Shown: positions 1,849-22,014 of the stretch, in pieces
Position numbering within the stretch: position 1 is the first letter of the stretch
Layout: the number at the start of each line of letters is the position of its first letter
Position numbers and translations under genes: made by a program
The notes under the pieces: generated by a model
The model's input: only the letters and a program-made list of their open reading frames with translations
Told to the model about the DNA's origin: nothing
The model's database searches: none
IMG/VR virus record: IMGVR_UViG_3300008120_000525
Location: 1-22,014 of that record
Strand: one strand, 5' to 3'
Length of the DNA stretch: 22,014 nucleotides
DNA from: a virus

Positions 1849-4800
1849 TTAAGGTGCAGAAGTTGTTGTTGTGGTAGTTGTACTACAGTTAGTAATAAAT
1901 ACAATTAGTCCACCCACCACTTGGAACACTGTGTTCACTGACTGAGAAGCTCCTGTAAAGTACCAGCCGTCAGGGATGGTTGCACAATTATTTGTACCAT
2001 TTGCTACAAACACCTTAGATCCAACATAAAGTCCTTGATATTGGATGGTTAGGAATGTAGGTATAACGTTTACATAAACTCCATCTATAATGTTTGCATT
2101 CAAATATACCACAGCATTACATGCAGCTATTAAGCTTCCTGTAGAAACAACATTAGATGGTGGAGATATAATATCGTATCCTGTAAAGAATACATCATTT
2201 ATTAAACTTGAAGGCCTTGTACAAGGAGGAGGTGGAGTTGGTCCAATCACTATTGCTGATCCTCCAAGATTACAACTTTTCTCTACAGCAGATCCTTCTA
2301 AGTTACAACTCTTTGTTGTAGTGGTAGTTGTTGTAGAACTTGTAGATGTTGTAGATGTGCTAGATGTAGTGGTGGTAGTTGGAATAGGTCCAAGTGTACC
2401 AACAATAGCATCAAGATCTTCGCAACATCCATTAATACCAGAGTAGAAGAAGTTGTTCTCACCAATGTACCAGTTAGGGAAATAGGTGTGGAAACTTATC
2501 CAGCTCTTAGTGTTGAAGTTAAATGACACAGTCCAGCTCTTATTACAGAAGTATTCTAGATCTGTAACATACACCACCTTACGTGTAACTATAGGACGAA
2601 TAGTTGTAGTGGTAGTGAAAGTTCCTGGATTAGTAGTGGTACTTGTTGTAGTACCAGCTAGTGTAGTGGTGCTAGTTGTTGTAGGACCATTTTGAGGATA
2701 CACCTCTTCTACATAGAACTCTCTATTTACAGCATCCCATTTAACATCACTGCTCTTAGGGATGTAGTCAAGCTTAGTTATTAATACTCTATCATACTTG
2801 CTATCATATACACCATGTAAACCAATACCGTTATAATGGTTGTCTACAGGTACATCTGGGAAGTAACGTAAGATTTCAAATGCTAGATGGTCTGTAAAGA
2901 ACCTATTAAGTCCTGAACCAAATCCTGATAGATCCACAGCTTGTGTACCAGTGATTAAGAAAACTTGACCACGTTTAGCATCAATAGTTACCTGTCCTTG
3001 TGGAATCTTCAGAAGCATCTTGTGCTGGGTTCCTACATACCCCAAATCAGTTTCAGCAAAATCAATTGGAGGAGCTCCTCTGAAGAGCATAGGATTACCA
3101 ACATAAGCAGCTTGAGGATTGCTAGTATCGATTGTCAACAAGTTGTTGTACATCAACGTCTTGTTCTCAAATCTAGCTAACACAGCTCTGTTCTGAATAC
3201 CATCTAAAGAGATTAAGTCTCCATAGTTCTGAGGGAAGTCAAAATAAGATATTGATCTGTAGATTAACCAGCTATTGACCCTGTTATCAGCATCTATGTT
3301 CTGAGCATCAGAATAAATAGCCCTGAATGGATAGTAGGTGTAACAAGGTTTGTCCCAATCTATAGGCAGGTGAGTGAAGGTGTTCTCCCTGTTCTGTTTA
3401 GAGAATGTAACATTATAGTAATAAGTGTTATCCTGAGCAATAGGAACAAAGCTTTCTTGTACCCAGTCATCAGGAATACCTGTACTTACATGAGGCCAGT
3501 AGTCTCCTTCTCTATTATTGAACGCCTGACGTAAATCTACATTATAAGAACTTTCACAATAGAAGTTGGGAATACCATAAGCAAACATGTAGAAATATCC
3601 ATCATAGAAAGTTCTATTAGGATTTTCAGCTGGAGGTGCAGGTAATTGACTATTTGGACAATCAAACTCGTGAGCTTTGTAGGAAATAATGTTAGTGAGC
3701 AAACCACCACCACTTGTGTAGTTACTTAAAATAGAACGAGCTGAATGCCAGTATTTCGGATAAGCTATGTTACCTATCTCATCATAGAATATGTCACTAT
3801 CATCTGGAGCATTAACACGATTATCAATGAAGAATGGAAGCTTGGTCTTAAATGTAAATCTGCTGATAAATGTATCACCACCAAATACAGTTTGTATCTG
3901 AGGAGTGTCAGCATCCACAAATGCTTGGAATCCAGTATCTACAGTGTCATAAGAATAGATTTGTCCATATTGATTTACAAACACATTCTTAAGAGAAGCA
4001 TAATAAGACACTACAGATATATCTTCTTCCTTAGCAGGAACATCACAATTTCCTGCCTCTGATATAGTGAATCTTGATTTATCTGTAACAATAGGAACAA
4101 TTCCAGATAACATGTTAGGACTCTGATCTGGGAACGGAAGAGCTTGTTTACCTATATCAGTTCTCAAATAAACAGATGATTCTCTTTGGAAGTTGTTGAT
4201 GTTATGTATATCACCAACATTCTGTACACCAGGTATTAAATATCTAGCAATATCAAGAGTACGTTGTTTAATTCCCTGATTATCAGGAACTCCCACTCCA
4301 TAGTTATAATCAGCCACAGAGTTGAAAGAATAAGCATAGTTCTTTCTAGTAATACCATTTACGTATATGGTTAAATACGCTTGATATGCAGCAAACATTG
4401 CTGCTGCACTAAAACCTCCACCAAACATTACACTCTCAAGCTTCAGAATATCACCTAGGAATGGTTGTCCAAAAGATGTTTCAGGAGAGTTAAATATCTG
4501 TCTGTATTTTTCTGTAAATCCAGGTTGTGGATTCTGAATCTTACAATTTTTTCCAGTGACAAGTACAGGTCCAGTGATGCAAATATTTTCAGGATTTTCT
4601 ATTGCTACAGGTCCACCTGTTCCAGGAACTACAGAAAGAGTTAAAGTGTCTACACTTGGCCAACCATTAACCCATGTTTGAGATATTCCTTCATATATAT
4701 CATCCCACTCAATTCTTCCTCCAGCTTTTAGGAATGTAGGAGGACATATTGTTACTGTCCACTCTTCATATGTAGAAAGTCCAGTTTTTCCTTCTGCAGG

Positions 4801-6825
4801 AGCAAGTATAACAGGTTTGCTGGTAGAGCAAAGTGGGAATGTACCTATAGAATAATACTTTTGTGTGCCCTGTTTGTTAGTGTTACAATCTGTGTATTGT
4901 ACCTCAGCAAAGTCAGGACCACCATTTGGATCAGGACCTAATACAGTAATTATTACATTATAACCATCACATATCTGACTCCAAGCATTATTTGTAGAAT
5001 TAAGGAACGGATCTTGGTTAAGATCATTATAAGGATAGTTAGGATAGAAGTAGGTTTGCTTCTCTCTTTCGTATGTATTAACATTTCTAAGAATGCCCTT
5101 TGCTACAATAGACTTATTAGTACCACGGTCTGCACGAATAATCTTAAATGCTACAATCTCATCCTTTTGTTCTTGTGTTAAATTAGATGCTTGAATTAGC
5201 GCACTAACTTGTTGTACATCTATCTGCACACCAATAGGAAATACAGCATCATTACCCTGAACCATTGTATTAGGGCCTAAGAATATCTTAGACTCATACG
5301 CAGGACTGATATTAATGTCAGGAAACTTATGGTGTCTAATAGGTTGACCAGCAAGATCACCCCATACATCTACATTACATGGATAGGTGTCTGTTGATTC
5401 CCAATAACCAAACTGGCCATATTGATAAGGACCTTTGTATTCAGGAGCAGGAGAGTAACCAGGACTTGTACCAATTACAGATCCTGTGTTATAGATTTTC
5501 CAATAAGGACTATATCCTATTCCTCCAGATGCGTAATCAGGATTGCCTATAAAGTCTGGGTTAGTGTCTGGTACGTCTGGTTGTAATGTTTCTGAAGGGC
5601 CTTTAATTCTACCAGGAATATGGAAACCATCAGTTTGCTTACCATTTCTAAGCAAAAATACTATCTCAAAAGCATAAACCTCATCTCTCAAATATCCTCT
5701 GAGATTGGTTGCGTTCAACTCATCTGCATAGTTTTCATTAGCTGGTATTCTCCAGCTCTCCCATAACAGATTGATTTGATTAGCAATGCTTTGGTAGTTA
5801 ATACGATCAATTGATGTTAAGTTATCCCAAACGAGAATGTCCTGCACATTTGTTAAGTCTTGTGCAATATCATAGTAAGGGAATTTCTCAAATATATCAT
5901 CAACAGTTAGACGTATTTGTGTTACGTTCTGACCAGTGTATGTGATTTGCTTCTGGACATTATCAATATAATAAGTGCCTACAAGTTCAACAGAAGTGAT
6001 AGCATTAACAGTTCTAATCACTGCTAAGTTGAAATACTGATATAGTCCTGTATCCTCTAAGTTGCTTATATTAAGGATGATGGATTTACCAACAGGATAG
6101 TTAAAGTTCACAGATGTTATGAACTCATCAGCAATAGGAGTGGGATTGGTAACAGAGTAGTAGGAAGTGTAAGGATTACCCTGAGGATCAGAGTATTGGA
6201 TAGCAAACTGGTATGTACCAGCAATCAGATTACCTGTGCTAGTAACATCAACCACTTCTAATTGAGGAATCTTAAAATTAGGCTGTAGCTTTAACTGATT
6301 ACAGTCTACATCATCTGTATACTCTGGATTACAGAAAGGAGTACCAGACTTTAATATCTTTGGAATGTCATCAATATCTAAGTATCTTCTAGGATTGTAA
6401 CCATCTGTCCAGTAGATTTCTGTAGTGCAGTTGGTTATCTTGTGTGCTGCCTTGAGGATGGGATAGTTAACATTAAAGTTAAGACAAGGAGCATTTACAA
6501 GTACACGGTATATACAATCGTTATTCTCCATATATCCAATCTGACTACCACCTGTTTCAGGGTTAGTGATGAAGAATATATGTTTGTTTCTCTCCTGGAT
6601 GAAATGTGTACCAACCAATACAAAGCCAGAAGGGAATGAAACGCAAGGCTCATTCCCAGGCTCATTCTGATAGTTTACAGAATTAGCATCAAAGTTTTCA
6701 ACAACAGCATTCAATGCATATGTCAGCTTACCTTTCGGAATCTGATTAACTGTCTGGTCCATATTAAGACCAGTGGTGGCATTATTATACTCTTGTCTAA
6801 CGTTACCTTGTTCTTGTTCAGCCAT
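1849..6825 (-). CDS. crAss-like tail muzzle / 'stabilization' protein with Thr-linked C-terminal modules
   Basis: At 1658 residues this is the largest product. Its N-terminal region (GLNMDQTVNQIPKGKLTYAL, YQNEPGN, KITNCTTEIYWTDGYNPRRY at about 110-170) matches my memory of crAss-like 'stabilization' proteins, the tail muzzle in the phiCrAss001 virion and distantly like P22 gp10. It would cap the distal tail tube. The core continues to YFCNKSW and the Trp-rich NTKSWISFHTYFPNWY near 1425-1453. A Thr/Ser loop (1382-1409) interrupts this core between KLDY and YFCNKSW. After the core come a second linker (1483-1504), two tandem KSCNL-x-GSA units (1505-1526), a PTPPPP spacer, a ~115-residue beta-type domain with NNCATIPDGWYFTG, and a final seven-Thr run ending SAP. 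The start at 6825 lies 5 nt after the 324-aa gene's stop, supporting coupled expression with that ring protein. Confidence 0.85.
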   Translation of the reverse strand: MAEQEQGNVRQEYNNATTGLNMDQTVNQIPKGKLTYALNAVVENFDANSVNYQNEPGNEPCVSFPSGFVLVGTHFIQERNKHIFFITNPETGGSQIGYMENNDCIYRVLVNAPCLNFNVNYPILKAAHKITNCTTEIYWTDGYNPRRYLDIDDIPKILKSGTPFCNPEYTDDVDCNQLKLQPNFKIPQLEVVDVTSTGNLIAGTYQFAIQYSDPQGNPYTSYYSVTNPTPIADEFITSVNFNYPVGKSIILNISNLEDTGLYQYFNLAVIRTVNAITSVELVGTYYIDNVQKQITYTGQNVTQIRLTVDDIFEKFPYYDIAQDLTNVQDILVWDNLTSIDRINYQSIANQINLLWESWRIPANENYADELNATNLRGYLRDEVYAFEIVFLLRNGKQTDGFHIPGRIKGPSETLQPDVPDTNPDFIGNPDYASGGIGYSPYWKIYNTGSVIGTSPGYSPAPEYKGPYQYGQFGYWESTDTYPCNVDVWGDLAGQPIRHHKFPDINISPAYESKIFLGPNTMVQGNDAVFPIGVQIDVQQVSALIQASNLTQEQKDEIVAFKIIRADRGTNKSIVAKGILRNVNTYEREKQTYFYPNYPYNDLNQDPFLNSTNNAWSQICDGYNVIITVLGPDPNGGPDFAEVQYTDCNTNKQGTQKYYSIGTFPLCSTSKPVILAPAEGKTGLSTYEEWTVTICPPTFLKAGGRIEWDDIYEGISQTWVNGWPSVDTLTLSVVPGTGGPVAIENPENICITGPVLVTGKNCKIQNPQPGFTEKYRQIFNSPETSFGQPFLGDILKLESVMFGGGFSAAAMFAAYQAYLTIYVNGITRKNYAYSFNSVADYNYGVGVPDNQGIKQRTLDIARYLIPGVQNVGDIHNINNFQRESSVYLRTDIGKQALPFPDQSPNMLSGIVPIVTDKSRFTISEAGNCDVPAKEEDISVVSYYASLKNVFVNQYGQIYSYDTVDTGFQAFVDADTPQIQTVFGGDTFISRFTFKTKLPFFIDNRVNAPDDSDIFYDEIGNIAYPKYWHSARSILSNYTSGGGLLTNIISYKAHEFDCPNSQLPAPPAENPNRTFYDGYFYMFAYGIPNFYCESSYNVDLRQAFNNREGDYWPHVSTGIPDDWVQESFVPIAQDNTYYYNVTFSKQNRENTFTHLPIDWDKPCYTYYPFRAIYSDAQNIDADNRVNSWLIYRSISYFDFPQNYGDLISLDGIQNRAVLARFENKTLMYNNLLTIDTSNPQAAYVGNPMLFRGAPPIDFAETDLGYVGTQHKMLLKIPQGQVTIDAKRGQVFLITGTQAVDLSGFGSGLNRFFTDHLAFEILRYFPDVPVDNHYNGIGLHGVYDSKYDRVLITKLDYIPKSSDVKWDAVNREFYVEEVYPQNGPTTTSTTTLAGTTTSTTTNPGTFTTTTTIRPIVTRKVVYVTDLEYFCNKSWTVSFNFNTKSWISFHTYFPNWYIGENNFFYSGINGCCEDLDAIVGTLGPIPTTTTTSSTSTTSTSSTTTTTTTKSCNLEGSAVEKSCNLGGSAIVIGPTPPPPCTRPSSLINDVFFTGYDIISPPSNVVSTGSLIAACNAVVYLNANIIDGVYVNVIPTFLTIQYQGLYVGSKVFVANGTNNCATIPDGWYFTGASQSVNTVFQVVGGLIVFITNCSTTTTTTTSAP
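1861..1881 (-). repeat. Terminal seven-Thr repeat of the muzzle gene
   Basis: Seven Thr codons encode residues 1649-1655, followed only by SAP and TAA. A linker with nothing after it is unusual. The next ORF resumes in the same frame 12 nt after the stop. Confidence 0.9.
2248..2313 (-). repeat. Two-copy 33-bp tandem repeat encoding KSCNL-x-GSA
   Basis: Units 2281-2313 and 2248-2280 match at about 24 of 33 bases by hand alignment. They encode KSCNLEGSAVE and KSCNLGGSAIV back to back. This looks like an internal duplication, or a remnant of a larger domain, at the downstream edge of a Thr linker. Confidence 0.8.
2314..2379 (-). repeat. Thr/Ser linker repeat 2 of the muzzle gene
   Basis: This repeat encodes 22 consecutive Thr or Ser residues (1483-1504) between the end of the conserved muzzle core and the C-terminal display-type domain. 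It is the longest uninterrupted Thr/Ser run in the window. Confidence 0.9.
2599..2682 (-). repeat. Thr/Ser linker repeat 1 inserted in the muzzle core
   Basis: This encodes residues 1382-1409, three Thr/Ser blocks separated by LAG and NPGTF. It falls between two segments (KLDY upstream, YFCNKSW downstream) that I recall being closer together in other crAss-like muzzle proteins. It therefore looks like a loop insertion rather than an inter-domain linker. Confidence 0.75.
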
Positions 6826-10443: not shown

Positions 10444-11091
10444 TTATGGACAAAGTACATATGCATTATCTTGTATTTGTAGATTTGCATATATACTAGT
10501 TACACCATTAATTACTTGTGATACTGGATTTGATATACCACATTTAGAAGTGAAATCTCCTGACACTTGTCCTTGACCAAACAACAAGTCTTGATTTGAA
10601 AAGTTTCTAATACCAAATATAAATGTGCCTCCAGCAGCTATAGGGAAAGTTGTTGATGGTATATAACTTGGATAATTACCTGGAGAAATATTCCAAGTTT
10701 GCCACCCACTTCCAGTGTCATACCATATTGTAACAGGTGATGGAACTAATCCATTAACAGCTAAATAAACAGTTACAGGATAGCTCTCTGCTAACGTTGT
10801 TGTGGTGGTTGTTGTAGGAGGAGTTACAGTCGTTGTGCTAGTAGTAGTAGTAGAAGATGTACTTGTTGTAGTAGTTAAAGCATTAATTTGGTTCTGTAAA
10901 GAAATAACAGTACTTTTTAAATCACAGATTTGCTCATCAATCTTTTGAAGAGCCACACTCAACGAATCACATGTCTGTACATTAGTACAAGGAAGATTTG
11001 GTCCAGTATAACCAACTTGATCAGACCCCACAACCTTTGATTGGCAGGGATCTTGACAGGGGCTACAATATTGTGGAGGAGTGAATTGCAT
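10444..11091 (-). CDS. Thr-linker fibre-like protein with shared anchor motif
   Basis: The 215-residue product has four parts. Residues 1-27 are Cys-rich (CSPCQDPC). Residues 28-50 hold YTGPNLPCTNVQTCDSLS, an anchor motif shared with the adjacent 376-aa protein. Residues 45-72 form a short coiled coil. Residues 73-99 are a Thr/Ser linker, followed by a beta-type domain with aromatic and Gly residues, ending YVLCP. The layout of virion anchor, trimerising coil, flexible stalk and display head suggests a head or tail fibre; this is inference from architecture. It starts 18 nt after the 376-aa stop and is followed by the strongest terminator in the window, so it ends a transcription unit. Confidence 0.8.
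   Translation of the reverse strand: MQFTPPQYCSPCQDPCQSKVVGSDQVGYTGPNLPCTNVQTCDSLSVALQKIDEQICDLKSTVISLQNQINALTTTTSTSSTTTTSTTTVTPPTTTTTTTLAESYPVTVYLAVNGLVPSPVTIWYDTGSGWQTWNISPGNYPSYIPSTTFPIAAGGTFIFGIRNFSNQDLLFGQGQVSGDFTSKCGISNPVSQVINGVTSIYANLQIQDNAYVLCP
10795..10875 (-). repeat. Thr/Ser linker repeat of the 215-aa fibre-like gene
   Basis: This encodes residues 73-99, Thr/Ser blocks broken by VTPP, between the coiled coil and the C-terminal domain. The plus strand shows gtagtagtagtag-type runs, the most uniform microsatellite here. Confidence 0.9.
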
Positions 11092-13268: not shown

Positions 13269-14438
13269 TTACGGAATCAAAGTTGATGTAGTAGTAGTAG
13301 AAGGCCATACAGTAGTTGTAGTGGATGTAGTTGTGATACAAGAGTTATCACCAGCTACAGGACCCAAACCAGCAACAAGAACAGCCTCGATAGCAGTTGC
13401 AGCAGCACTACCGCTTGCAACAGCAATGATTACAGTTGCATCTTCATAAATGTAGTCACCCCACTGATATGCAGACTTGTCATACTCATTGAACTTGATG
13501 TAGTAAGTATCGTAGGTAGTACCATCAGATACCCAGCTTTCAAAGTTCTCGTTGTAACCATTCATTCTGTACAAATGCTTCAGGTAACCAGCTTGGTAGC
13601 TGTAGAAGTTTTTCTCCAACTGAGCAATCTCAGCAGAAGTACCCACTGCATAAGAAGAACGCTGTACAACGGTAGCATCAGCTACAATGTTACAAGCATC
13701 TGCTACAATGAAGTCAGCAGTTGTTGCAGGTCCACTGTACACGAATGTACGGAACCACATACGGTCATACTCGAAAGGAAATGCTGCAACATCACAAGGC
13801 TGACCATATTTGGTAAGAGGCTTACCAGTGATACGCAAGAAAGCGTTTTGGTCGTTACCAATTCTTTGGAACTGATAGAAATCAGAGAAGGTGATGTTGT
13901 CAGGGTTGTTACCAGGAGCTTGCAATAAGAAATGATAGATGATATCATCAATCAATGCAGGGATATCAACGATAGAGCAAGGATCTCCACCACAATCGCA
14001 ACAAGGTGCGTTTACAGTTACTGAACGTGTAAAACCGTTGAAATACAGAGTGTCTAAGTAGCTAGAGTGAGCACGTAAAGTTACAGTGATAACATCACCA
14101 CACTGTACGTTGAAGTTTGTTACATCTGTAATTTGAGTTACAGGTGTAGGACAACCATTCACTTTATACCACTCAGTTACGTTGCTATTGCAACCAGCAC
14201 CTGAAGGACAACCTTTAATCTTATCAGAACGCTTAGAGCCTTGCAGATAAGTGTTTGTACGGCCCTGCGCAACATAAAAGTAAGGAGCAGCTGCGATGTT
14301 TACAGCTGTAGCCACGGCATAATCATTTTTGAAAATACCAACTTGGCCAGGAGTTAAGTCTTGCGTAGATCCAGAGCTAGGGAGCGCAGTTTGCCCTACT
14401 GGTACTACGAAGAGCGTAGTTAATGAAAAATCAGCCAT
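13269..14438 (-). CDS. Conserved virion structural protein with C-terminal Thr tail
   Basis: This 389-residue protein begins MADFSLTTLFVVPVGQTALP, with GQVGIFKNDYA and PYFYVAQGRTNTYLQGSKRS, an N-terminus I recall from conserved structural proteins of Bacteroidetes phages. A Cys cluster CCDCGGDPC lies at 146-154, followed by a helix and a beta-rich half with aromatic residues. The last 21 residues (369-389) are two Thr/Ser blocks joined by VWPS, ending STLIP with no domain after. That tail resembles the muzzle terminus and could be an exposed attachment arm or the remnant of a lost display domain. Codon choice looks GC-richer and more regular than in the fibre genes, as expected for an abundant protein. 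It starts 29 nt after the 243-aa stop; the hairpin follows it. Confidence 0.8.
   Translation of the reverse strand: MADFSLTTLFVVPVGQTALPSSGSTQDLTPGQVGIFKNDYAVATAVNIAAAPYFYVAQGRTNTYLQGSKRSDKIKGCPSGAGCNSNVTEWYKVNGCPTPVTQITDVTNFNVQCGDVITVTLRAHSSYLDTLYFNGFTRSVTVNAPCCDCGGDPCSIVDIPALIDDIIYHFLLQAPGNNPDNITFSDFYQFQRIGNDQNAFLRITGKPLTKYGQPCDVAAFPFEYDRMWFRTFVYSGPATTADFIVADACNIVADATVVQRSSYAVGTSAEIAQLEKNFYSYQAGYLKHLYRMNGYNENFESWVSDGTTYDTYYIKFNEYDKSAYQWGDYIYEDATVIIAVASGSAAATAIEAVLVAGLGPVAGDNSCITTTSTTTTVWPSTTTTSTLIP
13272..13334 (-). repeat. Terminal Thr/Ser repeat of the 389-aa gene
   Basis: This encodes residues 369-389 (TTTSTTTT, VWPS, TTTTSTLIP). The stop follows directly, and the only sequence before the next gene is the hairpin gap, so nothing is attached to this linker. 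Confidence 0.9.
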
Positions 14439-16335: not shown

Positions 16336-17889
16336 TTAGAATTGTGGGATCTCTTCGATCAACACTGTACGAGACAAGTCCTCAATGAATACATCACAAC
16401 GATCCTTCATCCAGATTTCATATCCTGGGAATTTGTTCGCAGAGCTCATACCCTGAGACTTAGCAAAGCCTAAGTGGTGGCGAGTTCCATCGATATATCC
16501 CCAAGTCATAGAAGGTGCACCCTTCATACGAACTTCACGGATGTTATTAACCATAGAACCATCAGACATTGGAGATACGTCGAACACCATGAATACTGGA
16601 GTTGACTTCTTGTTCTGTCCAAATTCTAGGTTAGATTGTGGAAGGTCAAGTTCTTTCAAGTGAATAAGTTCAACACGACCTGTTTCACGTGTAACCATTG
16701 CATCGAATGCAAAGTTATAAGTGATGTGTTGTCCTTCTCCTTGCATGTAACGGTTTCCGCTATCAGCCATGAAGGTAAGACCACTGTTCAAAGCGTCTGT
16801 CTTCAAAGCTTGTTGGAACACGTCAAAACCTGCTTCGTTAGTGTACATTTTAACACGACGATCTTTAACATCCACACGACGATAGAACAGATCACCAAAG
16901 ACAGCACGGATTAAGTTCGCAGTGAACTCACCACGGTTATACTGTACAAGGTTACCGTTGTTACGCATACGGTGGTAAACACCAGCTGAAGTACGCTTCA
17001 ACTCTTGCTTAGATCCGTTAGTCTTAACAGTACCAGGCTTGCTCCAAATCATACGCTTAACTTTCAACTCAAGCATAGACTTACGCATCCAGAATTCAAT
17101 AAATGGCTCCCATTTAACATCATTACGAGTTAAAGGAAGTTGGTTACGACGCTGAGGTGCATATACTAGGATATCCAAAGGACGACCAGCAGAATCACGC
17201 ATCATTTTGTCATCAGCCCACTCAGTGATTTTGTGCTCAAAACCATATGCAGAACCTAAAGATTCAAACATTGTGATTTGCTCACCCAAACGAGGAAGAC
17301 CTAACAAATCTTGATCGAATTCACCAATTGCAGCATCAACCAACTCAAGTTCGATACCTACTTGTAAGAAAGTAGAGCTAACGAAATCTACAGTTGGGTT
17401 ATCACTAACCAAAGTGAAGCTATAAAGGAAGCCCATGTTCCAAGGAACTGGATCCTTAATAACGTAGAAACGAGGACCATACTGACGAGAACCTACAGAA
17501 ATGATAGCGTTCTTAGAGAACTCATTTGTGTCAAGTACCAGTTGGAACTCTTGACCATCGATACCAGGCTTCTGCAACTCTTGAGTGGCAGTTGGAACAT
17601 CAATGATTTTAGGGAATTTGTACGGAACAGCTACTTGCCATTTCCAAGCATCGCTATTATTATCAATGTAATAAGGCGTGCTTTTGTTGATCATGTCAAG
17701 AAAGTCATTGCTGTAAAGAGAGCTCTGAGTATAAAGACTGATTATCTTTTTATCGTAATCAGCAGGCTCAGTTGAGTGGAAGCTCTCCAGGTGGTTAGCA
17801 TCAGTCAGCTTACCTACAGCACGCTTGTCCATAGAAGCGACACGAGCATACGTAAAGCCAGTTAGACCTGGGATTGTTTGAATTGCCAT
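16336..17889 (-). CDS. Major capsid protein (crAss-like, HK97-fold expected)
   Basis: At 517 residues and in the right position, this matches the crAss-like MCP family: an N-terminus with GLTGFTYARVASMDKR, then KIISLYTQSSLYSNDFLDMI, VPYKFPKI and VGSRQYGPRFYVI, and later FDVFQQALKTDAL, YNFAFDAMV and a C-terminus with GYEIWMKDRCDVFIEDLSRT. The HK97 fold is expected from the family, not shown by the sequence alone. It would assemble the icosahedral head around the scaffold-like protein encoded just upstream. Codons look more regular and GC-richer than those of neighbouring fibre genes, fitting high expression. The start lies 28 nt after the scaffold stop behind an A-rich leader, and a dense hairpin region follows the TAA. 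Confidence 0.85.
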   Translation of the reverse strand: MAIQTIPGLTGFTYARVASMDKRAVGKLTDANHLESFHSTEPADYDKKIISLYTQSSLYSNDFLDMINKSTPYYIDNNSDAWKWQVAVPYKFPKIIDVPTATQELQKPGIDGQEFQLVLDTNEFSKNAIISVGSRQYGPRFYVIKDPVPWNMGFLYSFTLVSDNPTVDFVSSTFLQVGIELELVDAAIGEFDQDLLGLPRLGEQITMFESLGSAYGFEHKITEWADDKMMRDSAGRPLDILVYAPQRRNQLPLTRNDVKWEPFIEFWMRKSMLELKVKRMIWSKPGTVKTNGSKQELKRTSAGVYHRMRNNGNLVQYNRGEFTANLIRAVFGDLFYRRVDVKDRRVKMYTNEAGFDVFQQALKTDALNSGLTFMADSGNRYMQGEGQHITYNFAFDAMVTRETGRVELIHLKELDLPQSNLEFGQNKKSTPVFMVFDVSPMSDGSMVNNIREVRMKGAPSMTWGYIDGTRHHLGFAKSQGMSSANKFPGYEIWMKDRCDVFIEDLSRTVLIEEIPQF

Positions 17890-17917: not shown

Positions 17918-19198
17918 TTATAAAAACCATGAATTTTGTTTAGAAGGCTGAGAGCCACCGCTAGATTTAGTCTTAGTTACCTGTCTAGCTACTTCCCCAA
18001 ACAGCTCGTTAGATTTCTTTGTAACGCCTGTTTTTTGGATGGTAGATAATGTAGGATCTTTTTCTAGGATCTTTAATAGCAGTGCAACCTTTACTTTAGT
18101 TGCATGGTTTTCAGGTCTTTTCAACTCTAAGATGGTCTTATCAAAGTCTGTGAGAGTTTCTCCTGATGCTGTTTTGTATTTATCTACCAGCAGGAAGTCT
18201 TGTAGTTCATTTGCCAACTTAGGGTTGATGGGTATTCCGTCAAACTCCTTTGATTTCAACTTGTCCTGTAGGACTTGTTGAACATTATTAATATACTGAT
18301 TCTTAATAGCTTGTTTCTGTTGTAGCTCTTGCTCAGCCTTTTGCTCCATTTGGGCAAGTTTCTGGGCTTCCTTCTTAACAAGCACTTTGTGGTGCTTTGT
18401 CGCTACACTTTCCAGATCGCCATAGTTCTTGAGTCTTTCAACCTCTGTATCGATGTCTTCAGGCTCAAATCCCTGATCAGCTAGAGCTTGTTTAATTACT
18501 GACACTTGGTTATTCTCTTGTGAGAGATCCATGTCAGAAAAGCTCACTACGTTATTATATGCACCAAAATATTCTTTTGGATTAACGCCTTTTACGAATA
18601 TAGCCTCGAACGCTTGTTGATAATCTTCACCAAATTGACCAATGAAGTTGTTCACCACCTCTATAGCTCCTTTCTTCTTTTCCTCTTGGAAGCGTTCCAA
18701 GAATTGTTCAGGAGTTGAGATGTCTATATCTTCTTCATCTTCATCTTTAGAAAAAACACCTAGTTTAAATAGGTCACGAGAAAGTGCAGTGAATTGACTC
18801 ACTTGTTCATCTCCTTCTTCTTCTTCAGATTCAGTTTCTTCAGCAGCAGGTTTGTCTGCAGCAGGAGCTTTCTTCTTAACTGGTTGAGGATCAACATCTT
18901 CTGCATCCTCTTCCTCTTCACTAGAATTATCTCCTAGGAAGCTAGAAATCAGGTCTTGACCGCTAGGTTCTTTACCATCTTCTTTTGGAACAATCTCCTT
19001 ACCTTTTGGAACATCAGGTTTTGGATCTGGAGTGGCAGGTTCTACTTCTTTTACAATCTTCTGAATATCATCAGGACTACCTGTAGATGTTTCAGGAGAC
19101 ATAAGGTCATTAAGAAGTTCTGCATTTCCAGCACCCATTTCCATAGTATTCTCAATACTAAAGTTGCCAAATGATGGCATATCAAGGTTCTCAGCCAT
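17918..19198 (-). CDS. Scaffolding-like acidic coiled-coil protein
   Basis: The 426-residue protein lies directly before MCP, where scaffolds usually sit. Residues 1-160 are low-complexity and strongly acidic with Pro and Lys patches (NSSEEEEDAEDVDPQP, TESEEEEGDEQ, SKDEDEEDIDI). From about 160 it becomes helical (FLERFQEEKKKGAIEVVNNF), with a Gln/Lys coiled coil (KKEAQKLAQMEQKAEQELQQ) near 270-295, and ends in a Lys/Ser-rich tail (TKSSGGSQPSKQNSWFL). No fold is recognisable to me, and the scaffold role is inferred from composition and neighbours. The start at 19198 is fixed by the leader AATAAACTACATATGG, identical to that of the 322-aa gene, and lies about 30 nt from a candidate promoter. 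Confidence 0.75.
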   Translation of the reverse strand: MAENLDMPSFGNFSIENTMEMGAGNAELLNDLMSPETSTGSPDDIQKIVKEVEPATPDPKPDVPKGKEIVPKEDGKEPSGQDLISSFLGDNSSEEEEDAEDVDPQPVKKKAPAADKPAAEETESEEEEGDEQVSQFTALSRDLFKLGVFSKDEDEEDIDISTPEQFLERFQEEKKKGAIEVVNNFIGQFGEDYQQAFEAIFVKGVNPKEYFGAYNNVVSFSDMDLSQENNQVSVIKQALADQGFEPEDIDTEVERLKNYGDLESVATKHHKVLVKKEAQKLAQMEQKAEQELQQKQAIKNQYINNVQQVLQDKLKSKEFDGIPINPKLANELQDFLLVDKYKTASGETLTDFDKTILELKRPENHATKVKVALLLKILEKDPTLSTIQKTGVTKKSNELFGEVARQVTKTKSSGGSQPSKQNSWFL

Positions 19199-19229: not shown

Positions 19230-19260
19230 TAAAAGTAGATAAAACGTATTGAATAGCAAA
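19230..19260 (-). promoter_or_regulatory. Bacteroidetes-type promoter for scaffold-MCP
   Basis: Minus-strand TTTG (19257-19260), 19 nt, then TACTTTTA (19230-19237) fits the Bacteroidetes sigma pattern with A instead of G at the end of the -7 element, as at 10296-10328. It lies in the only sizeable gap upstream of the scaffold gene. Confidence 0.6.
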
Positions 19261-19318
19261 GAGTTAATACAGTATATCAGTGGTTTTCACAGATAATATA
19301 GCATTAATATTTTTTAAT

Positions 19319-19849
19319 CTAATCAAGTTTGTTTATAACCGTGTCGTTTATTATTCTGAAGCTACGAATTGGAGCAATGTCTGTAAGTGTAACTTGTTGA
19401 ATCTCAACTCCCCACTTCTTAGCTTCCACCCTAACCTTCTTAGTCAAAAGGTTGTCCATTTCAGGATCAATACATTGTTCTAACGAGGATGATATTACAA
19501 TATTCTTAATGATAGACTGGGTCATATCAGCAAGAGCATCCTGAGCATCAAACACCTCTAATAGAAATGTTTTAACATCAGCAATCCTATATTTAATCAC
19601 TCCCTTCACAACAATGTTCTGTTTATCCTGTGTATATAAGGACTGAGGAGCTAAACTGAGAGTGGTAACAACAACATGTTGTGGTATCACCTCATCAAAT
19701 ATAGGAATCTTGAGATGAAATCCTGGGCCCAATACCTTCCTAAAATGCCCACTTCTTAATAGAACTGCCTGTTCATAGTTGGGAATAATCACTGCAGGAG
19801 TAAGGTAATTAAACCATTCAACTATTATATCTATTAGTTTATCAAACAT
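19319..19849 (-). CDS. Short SPFH/band-7 (stomatin-prohibitin-HflK/C-like) protein
   Basis: The 176 residues form an SPFH domain: a hydrophobic N-terminal segment (MFDKLIDIIVEWFNYLTPAV), VLGPGFHLKIPIFDEVIPQH near 39-58, then TQDKQNIVVKGVIKYRI, and later KWGVEIQQVTLTDIAP near 145-160. Family proteins form membrane-associated rings; HflK/C surrounds the FtsH protease. Cellular members usually exceed 250 residues and carry a long C-terminal coiled coil, which is missing here. The start overlaps the portal stop (TAATG), so it is made with the portal, and the gene ends in TAG, the only TAG stop in the window. A promoter-containing gap follows. The role is unknown to me; membrane docking during assembly or action on the host FtsH complex are inferences. 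Confidence 0.88.
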   Translation of the reverse strand: MFDKLIDIIVEWFNYLTPAVIIPNYEQAVLLRSGHFRKVLGPGFHLKIPIFDEVIPQHVVVTTLSLAPQSLYTQDKQNIVVKGVIKYRIADVKTFLLEVFDAQDALADMTQSIIKNIVISSSLEQCIDPEMDNLLTKKVRVEAKKWGVEIQQVTLTDIAPIRSFRIINDTVINKLD

Positions 19850-22014
19850 TATTTAGGTTTTTTAGCACGACCTTTAGCATTCTCTTTAGCGATAGCTAGA
19901 TCGTTCTTCTGATTCTCACGATCCACTTGTAACTTCTCCCTTTCGAGAGCAATCTTTTCAGCAGCCAGTCTGTTCTTGGTATTAAGGTCAGCCATCTTTG
20001 CCTGGTAGTCTCTAGTAGTTCTTTCTTGTTCTGCATTTAACTTACTGATTTCCAATACATCAGGAGTACCAGTTTTGTCTACATCAGATAGAGGACCCAT
20101 GTTCTTTGCCTCAGCAGCAATCAAAGCAATCTCTTTCTTGTTGATACGATCAAGTTCGTTCTGATAATTCTGATTAGCTATATCTTGTTCTTTCTGTATC
20201 TGAGCTTGTTGAAGTTGAGCCTGAGCAATCTGACCTTGTTGTTCAACTTGCTGTTGCTGAATCTGAAGCTTCTGCTGTTCCATAGCCTCTTGCTTATCAC
20301 GTAAATCTTTGAACACCTTCTTCATAGCTCTCATAGACTTAGTGCTGTACAGCTCAATCACATCGTACAATGATCCACCATTCTGCATCAAAGGTTGAGC
20401 CAATTGACGCAGTTCATTAAACATTTGTGTATCCTCAGGACGATTTGTCAAGAATACCTTCAGGTCACGGAATCTTAAGTCTGATCCATTTACAGATACA
20501 AATGCTGACTCACCTTCGCTAGTAATATAACTAAGAGTGGACTGAGGCTTCTTAGATTCTACATACAGAGCAGCATCTATAATTGCTTGATAGAGCTGAC
20601 CCATAACATATTCATGAGCCACAAACCAAGGCTCTGTTTGAGCATAAGATTGTGACACAGCTGTATTTACACCTGTAGCAGATTCACTAGCTGTAATAGA
20701 TCCCATACGCTGCCTACTCATACCTACTAGTTCCCAACACTCATTCTTAAGTTGCTGAGCTAATGTATAACGAGACTGTATCTCTTGTGTACGTGTAAGG
20801 TCAATATCCCTAAACTGGTTGAATGAGCTTGGGGATTTTAGGTTCTCAGGGCTATCATCAATAAAGACAACACCTCTGTTTCTAGCTTCCATTTCCCAGA
20901 TGTCCAATGCATCTTGAGCATCACCATCCTTAGGAACAGGAATGTGTCTGATGGATGTCAAATACACCTTACCCACTTCCTTCTCAAGAAGCTTGTAAAG
21001 CTGGTTCATACATACATTATATAACACCTGGAAAGGCTTCATCAAGTCAACTAGACTCTTTGCCTCTGTATTCTTCACCTCGTATGTGATACCTATGATA
21101 GGACAGTAGTTTAGAAGTTTGAATGGTTTAACGTGGTAGATATCTGGACCAATCTTGATTCCCTGATACCACTGGTTAATCCATCCCCATTCTAGAGATT
21201 GCTGTGTTGGCATAGTGCCAGACTTATAGTTCTCATCTACCAATACTGATTGCTCATTACCAAGCTCATCAATATAGATGAGTTTACCAATCTTCTTCTT
21301 ACTTAACCAGTAGCAGCGAACAACAACATACTTATAACCGAATGAACTAACATTTGACGTTAGACCTAAGAAGTCTTTAAGACCATCATTGTTCTCCTTC
21401 ATTTCACTCTCGATAATCATACGAGTTTGAAGAACCAGTGGATCAAATGTATCATAGGTAACTGAGTCAATACCAGGAACAGCATTAGGATTACCTAGAT
21501 TGGATTCACGGACGTTAATAAGTCCATAGTCTTGGAGAGAACTTCTTAGATGGTCTATTTCTTCTTTAGTAAGGTCTGGTATGCTTTCAATGATTTCTGA
21601 AAGTTCCATAACCTGTACTGTACCAGCGGCATAAGCCCCCTGAGCTCTACCTGTAGGATCAGAGATGTACTTTCTATCAGGAGTTGTAAGAAACCAAGTG
21701 TTTTTTGGATTAGCAACCTCGATATTAAAACCGAGTTTAGAATTGTCTTCATATATATGATAGAACTCTCTTCCAGAAATTAGTATATCACGAAATGCAT
21801 CTTCGCTTTTTTCCTTCAGATTGAATTCAGCTTTCTGACATGTTAGAATATGGTTAGCCCACTTTTCAGCTACAGATGTATAGCTATCCAATGTGTCTTG
21901 CACTTCATCCATAGTCATCTGGTTAACTTCCTCATCAGGAATCTCTTCTCCCTTAATAGCTGCATTTTGTAATATTTGCTGTTTAGCTTTTCCTATTATA
22001 TATTCATGCAGAAT
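19849..22014 (-). CDS. Portal protein, 5'-partial
   Basis: The frame is open through the right edge: codons upstream of the ATG at 21918 continue without a stop (LHEYIIGKAKQQILQ visible at 21970-22011), so the true start is outside the window and 721 residues are visible. The sequence matches crAss-like portals: YNVCMNQLYKLLEKEVGKVY, RNRGVVFIDDSPENLK, MSRQRMGSITASESATGV and FLTNRPEDTQMFNELRQL. The portal would form the dodecameric DNA gate at one head vertex. The last ~150 residues are an unusually Gln/Lys/Glu-rich coiled coil (KLQIQQQQVEQQGQIAQAQL), ending in basic NAKGRAKKPK, perhaps a barrel extension or a scaffold or DNA contact. Its TAA overlaps the SPFH start. Confidence 0.87.
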   Translation of the reverse strand: MLHEYIIGKAKQQILQNAAIKGEEIPDEEVNQMTMDEVQDTLDSYTSVAEKWANHILTCQKAEFNLKEKSEDAFRDILISGREFYHIYEDNSKLGFNIEVANPKNTWFLTTPDRKYISDPTGRAQGAYAAGTVQVMELSEIIESIPDLTKEEIDHLRSSLQDYGLINVRESNLGNPNAVPGIDSVTYDTFDPLVLQTRMIIESEMKENNDGLKDFLGLTSNVSSFGYKYVVVRCYWLSKKKIGKLIYIDELGNEQSVLVDENYKSGTMPTQQSLEWGWINQWYQGIKIGPDIYHVKPFKLLNYCPIIGITYEVKNTEAKSLVDLMKPFQVLYNVCMNQLYKLLEKEVGKVYLTSIRHIPVPKDGDAQDALDIWEMEARNRGVVFIDDSPENLKSPSSFNQFRDIDLTRTQEIQSRYTLAQQLKNECWELVGMSRQRMGSITASESATGVNTAVSQSYAQTEPWFVAHEYVMGQLYQAIIDAALYVESKKPQSTLSYITSEGESAFVSVNGSDLRFRDLKVFLTNRPEDTQMFNELRQLAQPLMQNGGSLYDVIELYSTKSMRAMKKVFKDLRDKQEAMEQQKLQIQQQQVEQQGQIAQAQLQQAQIQKEQDIANQNYQNELDRINKKEIALIAAEAKNMGPLSDVDKTGTPDVLEISKLNAEQERTTRDYQAKMADLNTKNRLAAEKIALEREKLQVDRENQKNDLAIAKENAKGRAKKPK

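Follow-up and report, generated by a model that had tools for sequence, protein, structure and literature searches.

The SPFH (Band 7) gene between the portal gene and a scaffold-like gene in the viral DNA analysed here (record IMGVR_UViG_3300008120_000525, positions 1 to 22,014; hereafter the window, 22,014 nucleotides) most likely helps the phage handle its host, as an optional gene, and is not part of the head-building machinery. We think it probable, if only somewhat so, that its short product is an optional membrane-surface protein that acts on the host membrane or its proteases and has spread as a cassette.

A mini-SPFH protein lacking the coiled coil

The original prediction of an SPFH/Band 7 gene between portal and scaffold was borne out by profile searches, modelling and fold comparison, and by a Crassvirales portal gene on one flank and a scaffold-like gene on the other (Table 1). 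The ORF, read from an ATG, matches Pfam PF01145 Band_7 with E=1.2e-24 and 87.7 bits against a cut-off of 23.6, and phmmer against the PDB gave stomatin (1.2e-11), QmcA (1.1e-9) and HflK (1.3e-6). An AlphaFold2 model built from 30 sequences (mean pLDDT 83, pTM 0.67) predicts a helix over residues 2-16, then a beta-rich SPFH1 and an alpha/beta SPFH2. Human stomatin was the top Foldseek match in the PDB (5.7e-15), with HflK, HflC and QmcA within the first ten, and Foldseek and VIA-align grouped the model with stomatin, HflK, QmcA, prohibitin, erlin and flotillin. By profile and by its predicted SPFH1-SPFH2 fold, the protein belongs to the SPFH/Band 7 superfamily.

The C-terminal coiled-coil helices of the dome-forming members (stomatin, HflK/C, prohibitin) were found in neither the ORF nor the model, where the last stretch, residues 161-176, is of low confidence (block means 60 and 48; residues 173-176 below pLDDT 50) and forms no helix. 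This absence, noted in the original prediction, extends to relatives: the ORF in this position is exactly 176 aa long in 71 of 74 non-identical loci, and 68 of the 74 end in TAG. TAG is read as glutamine in some Crassvirales (PMC10136315). We ruled out a coil hidden behind a recoded TAG: read-through lengthens the window ORF by four residues and none of the 74 by more than 35, a gain so small that recoding hides no coil, and the absence is constant in the set.

The N-terminal helix is predicted to be amphipathic. The hydrophobic moment of residues 1-17 is 0.73, a value reached by 0 of 1000 shuffles; for 43 distinct SPFH N-termini the median moment was 0.72, and shuffles as high numbered a median of 0 and at most 8 of 1000. 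At 15 residues and with a polar face, the modelled helix is too short for spanning a membrane. A membrane-surface location is plausible on this model, and the helix would bind the inner membrane from the cytoplasmic side; because only this 15-residue amphipathic helix precedes the domain in the model, the SPFH domain should remain in the cytoplasm. One divergent type, that of locus L149, has no strong N-terminal moment (0.10-0.14 for residues 1-17, and no more than 0.50 for any 14-residue stretch tried), which counts against the reading proposed below. In human SPFH complexes adjacent SPFH domains touch and SPFH1 aids membrane anchoring (PMC12624060); such domain contacts make partial assembly without a coil conceivable for the phage protein.

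Table 1. Annotated features of the portal-to-capsid region of the window.
Feature	Position	Strand	Evidence
Portal protein gene, 5' end beyond window	19849..22014	(-)	PF16510 1.2e-12; phrog_6547 2.9e-82
TAATG: portal stop and SPFH start, one base in common (19849)	19847..19851	(-)	Sequence
Mini-SPFH (Band 7) gene, 176 aa, without C-terminal coiled coil	19319..19849	(-)	Pfam PF01145, AF2 model, Foldseek
Predicted N-terminal amphipathic helix, codons 2-16	19802..19846	(-)	DSSP on AF2 model; hydrophobic moment
Band 7 domain, residues 21-160	19370..19789	(-)	Pfam
TAG stop of SPFH; read-through adds only IKKY	19319..19321	(-)	Stop read-through
Conserved AATGCTATAT motif near downstream slot border	19296..19305	(-)	Motif count over slots
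Promoter-like TTTG-N19-TAnnTTT ahead of scaffold gene	19231..19260	(-)	Motif count over slots
Scaffold-like gene, named from position only	17918..19198	(-)	ORF and profile searches
Major capsid protein (MCP) gene	16336..17889	(-)	Crass_capsid 7.8e-28

A slot with exchangeable contents

The portal beside the SPFH gene is of the P22-like/crAss type; the scaffold-like gene matches phrog_16294 (4.3e-8), a family without known function. We compared the interval between these two genes, which we call the slot, across three samples of relatives, so that the frequencies given are sample frequencies, from best-matching relatives. The SPFH-protein scan kept the best 80 of 104 relatives; the window MCP yielded the best 80 of at least 598, with 79 newly added loci; and an MCP profile headed by a distant crAss phage yielded the best 80 of at least 498, with 78 loci. 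Loci in which portal and scaffold were not both in view were excluded from the counts (3/80, 20/79 and 16/78, respectively).

Both flanks are in view in 77 of the 80 SPFH-selected loci, and all 77 carry the gene between portal and scaffold. The capsid-selected samples were more varied: the 59 judged loci from the window MCP comprised 41 with SPFH, 14 with a pair of small genes (ORF-A/ORF-B, hereafter AB), three empty and one other, and the 62 from the MCP profile comprised 16 with SPFH, 40 empty and six other. Pooled, and with identical slots removed, these samples gave 101 slots (41 SPFH, 41 empty, 12 AB, seven other), none of which held SPFH and ORF-B together. Even among relatives with 96-98% identical MCP, SPFH may be missing or the slot filled by other genes. 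A search of 36 whole records found Band 7 in 12: all ten with SPFH in the slot, and two, L089 and Leptolyngbya phage Lbo-JY46, with a Band 7 gene outside it. None was found in the 14 records whose slot is empty or of the AB or other class, in seven other Lbo-like records or in three named crAss phages. The 14 include contigs of 113,680, 114,745, 113,703 and 98,080 bases (completeness not given), which have 97-98% identical capsid proteins.

Conservation in this position across crAss-like genomes, which the original prediction named as a check, holds for the site, which is fixed, but not for the gene, which occupies only 41 of the 101 slots; a Crassvirales core head gene would be in all close relatives. 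The gene does show the patchy presence at a fixed site, with non-homologous replacements, that characterises an accessory, moron-like cassette. As regards an own transcription unit, the further mark of such cassettes, the SPFH gene overlaps the portal gene and a promoter signature lies 3' of it.

Among the minor occupants are an ORF of 66-68 aa that separates portal from SPFH (L011, L023), others of 85-110 aa (L273, L275, L278, L312, L333), one of 73 aa (L138), and genes of the endonuclease VII type (Pfam PF02945) both with SPFH (L169:5628-6047) and without it (L339:6142-6561). In L346 an ORF ahead of the scaffold gene (1-657) resembles a GIY-YIG/NUMOD endonuclease by eye only, with no Pfam match over the cut-off. 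L346 itself (JACIXZ010000023.1; MCP 89% identical to that of the window), the sole MCP relative that turned up among the genome contigs searched, sits in a Tissierellales MAG, where it is likely a stray phage contig, and we claim no host from it. Two proteins in the scaffold position carry annotations that look doubtful, 'regulatory protein RecX' (L083:11734-12912, cr6_1) and 'VIP2 toxin family' (L085:251-1405, Azobacteroides phage); the latter matches a scaffold profile weakly (7e-4).

The borders of the slot are regular. SPFH shares one base with the portal gene in 65 of 77 loci by a first count and in 54 of 74 non-identical slots, and in 17 further slots of the 74 it starts two bases past the portal stop. 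The same one-base overlap is made by ORF-A in 15 of 17 AB slots; because both genes overlap the portal stop, the overlap is a habit of the slot and not specific to SPFH. The coupling to the portal that had been proposed is present in the form of the TAATG. Near the downstream border, AATGCTATAT occurs in 74 of 75 SPFH slots (window included), 17 of 17 AB, 30 of 41 empty and three of seven other slots. TTTG-N18-21-TAnnTTT follows in 72/75, 17/17, 33/41 and 6/7, respectively, against a chance expectation in shuffles of under one per slot class. This signature, which we take to be the Bacteroidota promoter consensus, we read as the promoter of the scaffold/capsid genes; lying between SPFH and scaffold, it would make SPFH the last gene of the portal unit. 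The description of the gene as embedded in a head-assembly operon has to be qualified for this reason.

The history of the slot was followed on a FastTree tree of portal, scaffold and MCP from 126 loci (13 of 139 were left out with truncated genes; the root was not inferred). One clade of 86 loci holds 65 with SPFH, including L149 with its divergent type, together with 13 AB, seven empty and one other; outside it 33 of 40 loci are empty and one, L277, has SPFH. At least 10 changes of SPFH state are required, nine of them forced by starred branches, against a mean of 42 in shuffles. On this unrooted tree the empty slot is likely the older state.

The window locus is a mosaic, its SPFH allele having been exchanged between lineages. 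Its portal is 94.9% identical to those of L071 and L073 and 80.7% to that of L002, and its scaffold 88.7% to that of L071 and 70.4% to that of L002, while its SPFH is 69.9% identical to that of L071 and 89.2% to those of L002 and L314. DNA identity to L071 is 88-91% at the portal end, falls at the portal stop to 57% over the first half of SPFH and returns to 69-81% over the second half, which makes the 5' half the clearest part of the swap. Against L002, the DNA is 58-71% identical over the 3' portal, 75-83% over SPFH and 51-67% over the first part of the scaffold. On a tree of SPFH sequences, the window falls into a different lineage from the one to which its portal and scaffold belong.

The gene, though optional, is functional and under strong purifying selection. 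Median dN/dS was 0.066 for SPFH (109 pairs with dS of 0.1-1, not independent of one another), 0.059 for MCP (400 pairs), 0.103 for portal (150) and 0.169 for scaffold (241); L149 and L277 were omitted from the selection and SPFH-tree sets. A source among host genes was sought by scanning 84,980 species genomes with the SPFH alignment, and none of the 109 pattern matches of this pattern-limited scan was a relative. Of the sporadic presence with similarity to one host gene that would have marked a passing acquisition, only the patchiness was observed: the gene is strongly constrained, and the pattern-limited scan turned up no host source.

Elsewhere in the window, threonine runs (for example TTTTTTTT and TSTSSTTTTTT) occur in four proteins (1228-1836, 1849-6825, 10444-11091 and 13269-14438, minus strand); as linkers or tails they are possible low-complexity joints between exchangeable domains.

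Mini-SPFH genes and their alternates in other phages

Other phages, too, have coil-less mini-SPFH genes, and these lie apart from head genes. The divergent SPFH of L277, used as a query, returned 29 loci. Four of them sit in the crAss slot; for the remaining 25, whose contigs reach 317 and 364 kb, the available DNA shows no portal, scaffold or MCP of crAss type. The ORF is coil-less in 28 of the 29, the exception (L374) having a longer frame with an insertion; the query patterns included the N-terminus, and its conservation in the hits arises partly by selection. Adding 26 further sequences gave 55 (46 distinct), with lengths of 166-182 aa; L374 was left out of the mini-SPFH set. Ten neighbours from seven of the 25 loci were assigned to PHROGs as a dCMP deaminase, a thymidylate synthase, a DNA-binding protein, a Mom-like modification protein, two sugar transferases and one tail protein, with three unmatched. 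One neighbour of the non-crAss SPFH of L367 has matches to tail families and a weak one to a virion structural family, which counts against the reading proposed below.

The crAss slot holds three SPFH types, those of the window, L277 and L149, and the mini-SPFH tree favours three groups, although starred branches force only one change. In L089, kin of Lbo-JY46, an SPFH of the same length, 56-57% identical, lies one small gene ahead of TerL (phrog_6681, 6.1e-86), beside a NUMOD-motif gene; a query with it returned two loci, one of them its own contig. Three mini-SPFH types in one slot, and SPFH genes near TerL in L089 and in the podovirus locus L084, could reflect a real link to packaging or the head. 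L084 (MW202733.1, 7965-8543) is an unrelated podovirus with a coil-less SPFH frame directly 3' of the terminase gene, 192 aa from stop to stop and annotated from a later start as prohibitin-like. Annotated phage records gave 13 distant SPFH matches, of which L084 was viewed in its gene context. Lbo-JY46 itself (L174, PP438436.1; recorded host cyanobacterial) has a crAss-type portal and capsid, its MCP being 29% identical to that of the window, and its separate 260 aa Band 7 protein has, by eye, a lipoprotein-like start.

The most frequent replacement of SPFH in the slot is a pair of overlapping genes, ORF-A (about 79 aa; L100:6098-6337) and ORF-B (84 aa; L100:6309-6563). All 16 aligned ORF-B proteins contain HEHFHLKHPDWSE, an HExxH motif; searches of Pfam and PHROGs gave no family for ORF-B and none over the cut-off for ORF-A, and in the ORF-B model (pLDDT 65) only the two central helices can be relied on. 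The HExxH motif offers a lead towards a zinc protease role. Among the best 80 of 101 ORF-B relatives (L188-L267), 22 loci were crAss slots and 58 lay elsewhere, many on 30-35 kb contigs. Gene-by-gene reading of five non-crAss loci placed the pair behind lysis-type genes, three of these loci having endolysin or amidase matches, and at the end of the gene run.

SPFH and ORF-B also share surroundings outside crAss phages. Directly 5' of SPFH lies a metallophosphoesterase (phrog_221) in L352, L356 and L357 and a polymerase-exonuclease-like protein (phrog_403) in L353 and L354, PHROG assignment having been run on one protein of each kind. Homologues of the former (38-39%) lie 279-451 bases ahead of ORF-B in 21 of the 58 non-crAss loci, and of the latter (51%) 348-1160 bases ahead in 30; one of the two genes is present in 51 of the 58, and both in none. 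A second cassette region seems to lie where this run of genes ends. Of 40 records, 15 contained Band 7 and the remaining 25 ORF-B, never both, a mutual exclusion biased by the choice of records mostly for holding SPFH or ORF-B; within the crAss slot, exclusion follows because the two share one place. Two empty-slot records had neither gene.

This alternation at two unrelated places was unexpected. A tentative extension, which we hold to be possible but doubtful, is that several phage kinds carry a mini-SPFH with a membrane foot and no dome, acting on a host inner-membrane SPFH/protease or defence system, and that ORF-A with the HExxH protein ORF-B is its functional substitute; swapping of genes does not prove the same job.

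Proposed function and known systems

We infer membrane contact, assembly, timing and target as follows. The slot, from the portal stop codon to the promoter of the scaffold/capsid genes, would be a cassette site with SPFH as one optional occupant. Late in infection the N-terminal amphipathic helix would attach the protein to the inner membrane of the host on its cytoplasmic side, where SPFH1-SPFH2 units may form open arcs or rings, or mix with host SPFH subunits that face the cytoplasm; a closed dome would not be built, since the coil makes the dome. Some host membrane function, such as protease access, the membrane-stress response or a membrane-borne defence, would thereby be altered in favour of the phage. 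The gene would be kept where the host makes it useful and otherwise lost or replaced by ORF-A/ORF-B. Recombination in the flanks would exchange the cassettes, and endonuclease genes within or next to the slot may assist this in some lineages.

Part of the evidence would suit a membrane dock, in which SPFH would keep the portal on the inner membrane pending assembly of scaffold and capsid. T4 offers the precedent, its portal assembly being attached to the inner membrane and dependent on gp40 (PMC9958956). The one-base overlap with the portal gene, the constant position between portal and scaffold in the SPFH-selected loci, and the amphipathic helix all fit such a role, and docking of the procapsid at the membrane was among the functions originally proposed. 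Its membrane-surface component remains plausible, but a needed role finds no support when the gene is absent or replaced beside nearly identical capsid genes and missing from four contigs of 98-115 kb; the portal overlap is common to the unrelated ORF-A, and coil-less relatives occur away from head genes. We consider the dock unlikely. Modulation of the HflK/C-FtsH protease, also proposed originally, would have the coil-less subunit join the HflK/C ring and open or block it, shielding phage proteins from FtsH. HflK is the top NCBIfam match (1.4e-18) and HflK/C-FtsH structures are among the fold matches, but 67.3 bits fall far under the hflK equivalog cut-off of 159.4, and by sequence stomatin and QmcA outscore HflK. 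The SPFH domains of HflK/C are periplasmic, and the cytoplasmic position predicted for the phage domain speaks against mixing with them; we rate this reading as less likely again.

The position next to the portal also recalls crAss001, in which gp21, numbered next to the portal gp20, is a trimeric head fibre with homologues in only some groups (PMC10172136). An accessory virion protein in a head-decoration slot would agree with DAC15, whose portal gene is followed by one annotated as head fiber protein. However, relatives away from head genes fit this poorly, and an SPFH fold with an amphipathic helix is untypical of a decoration protein, so that we regard it as improbable, more so than either of the preceding readings. 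Patchy presence would suit a passing acquisition without phage function, carried only by an endonuclease-linked cassette, as would the endonuclease genes that a few loci have within or close to the slot; against this stand a dN/dS close to that of the MCP and the constant length of the protein, and we give this reading very little credence.

These findings have some general bearing. SPFH proteins are usually read as dome-forming membrane organisers, and the conserved coil-less phage form is a natural minimal SPFH unit, which allows testing what the domain pair does alone. That the portal-adjacent slot is swappable is a caution for anyone inferring function from gene position in phage head operons; the repeated alternation between SPFH and an HExxH protein points to a host target that phages may reach in two ways.

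Our search of the open-access literature found no paper on an SPFH, band 7 or stomatin gene of crAss-like phages; phage genome papers listed there mention an SPFH domain in passing, and a word search of a jumbo-phage review (PMC7824862) found none of SPFH, prohibitin, stomatin or band 7. PADLOC defence profiles gave no family for six proteins at E 0.01.

Among known systems, stomatin and QmcA are the best sequence and fold matches and have SPFH1 and SPFH2 in common with the window protein, but the latter lacks the coil, has an amphipathic helix instead of the usual membrane segment, and at 176 aa is far shorter than the QmcA chain (305 aa) or the longer stomatin chains (256-308 aa). HflK and HflC likewise have the domain pair, whereas the window model has neither a transmembrane-length helix nor a coil. 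A counterpart of similar length is the 'HflK' of an uncultured Caudovirales phage (A0A6J7WFI0, BFVD), also coil-less at 173 aa, with TM-scores of 0.86/0.88 and 29% identity. Band 7 folds of Rhizobium phage Pasto (281 aa) and Streptomyces phage StarPlatinum (288 aa) are longer and only weakly similar, and phrog_200, which collects longer phage SPFH proteins, matches the window protein at 1.1e-6. The mini-SPFH gene is a member of a coil-less set found across several phage kinds. With T4 gp40 it would have in common the idea of a phage-coded membrane helper, although the SPFH gene here is optional; with crAss001 gp21 and the DAC15 head fibre it has in common being a group-specific gene beside the portal, although those encode a different protein, a structural fibre.
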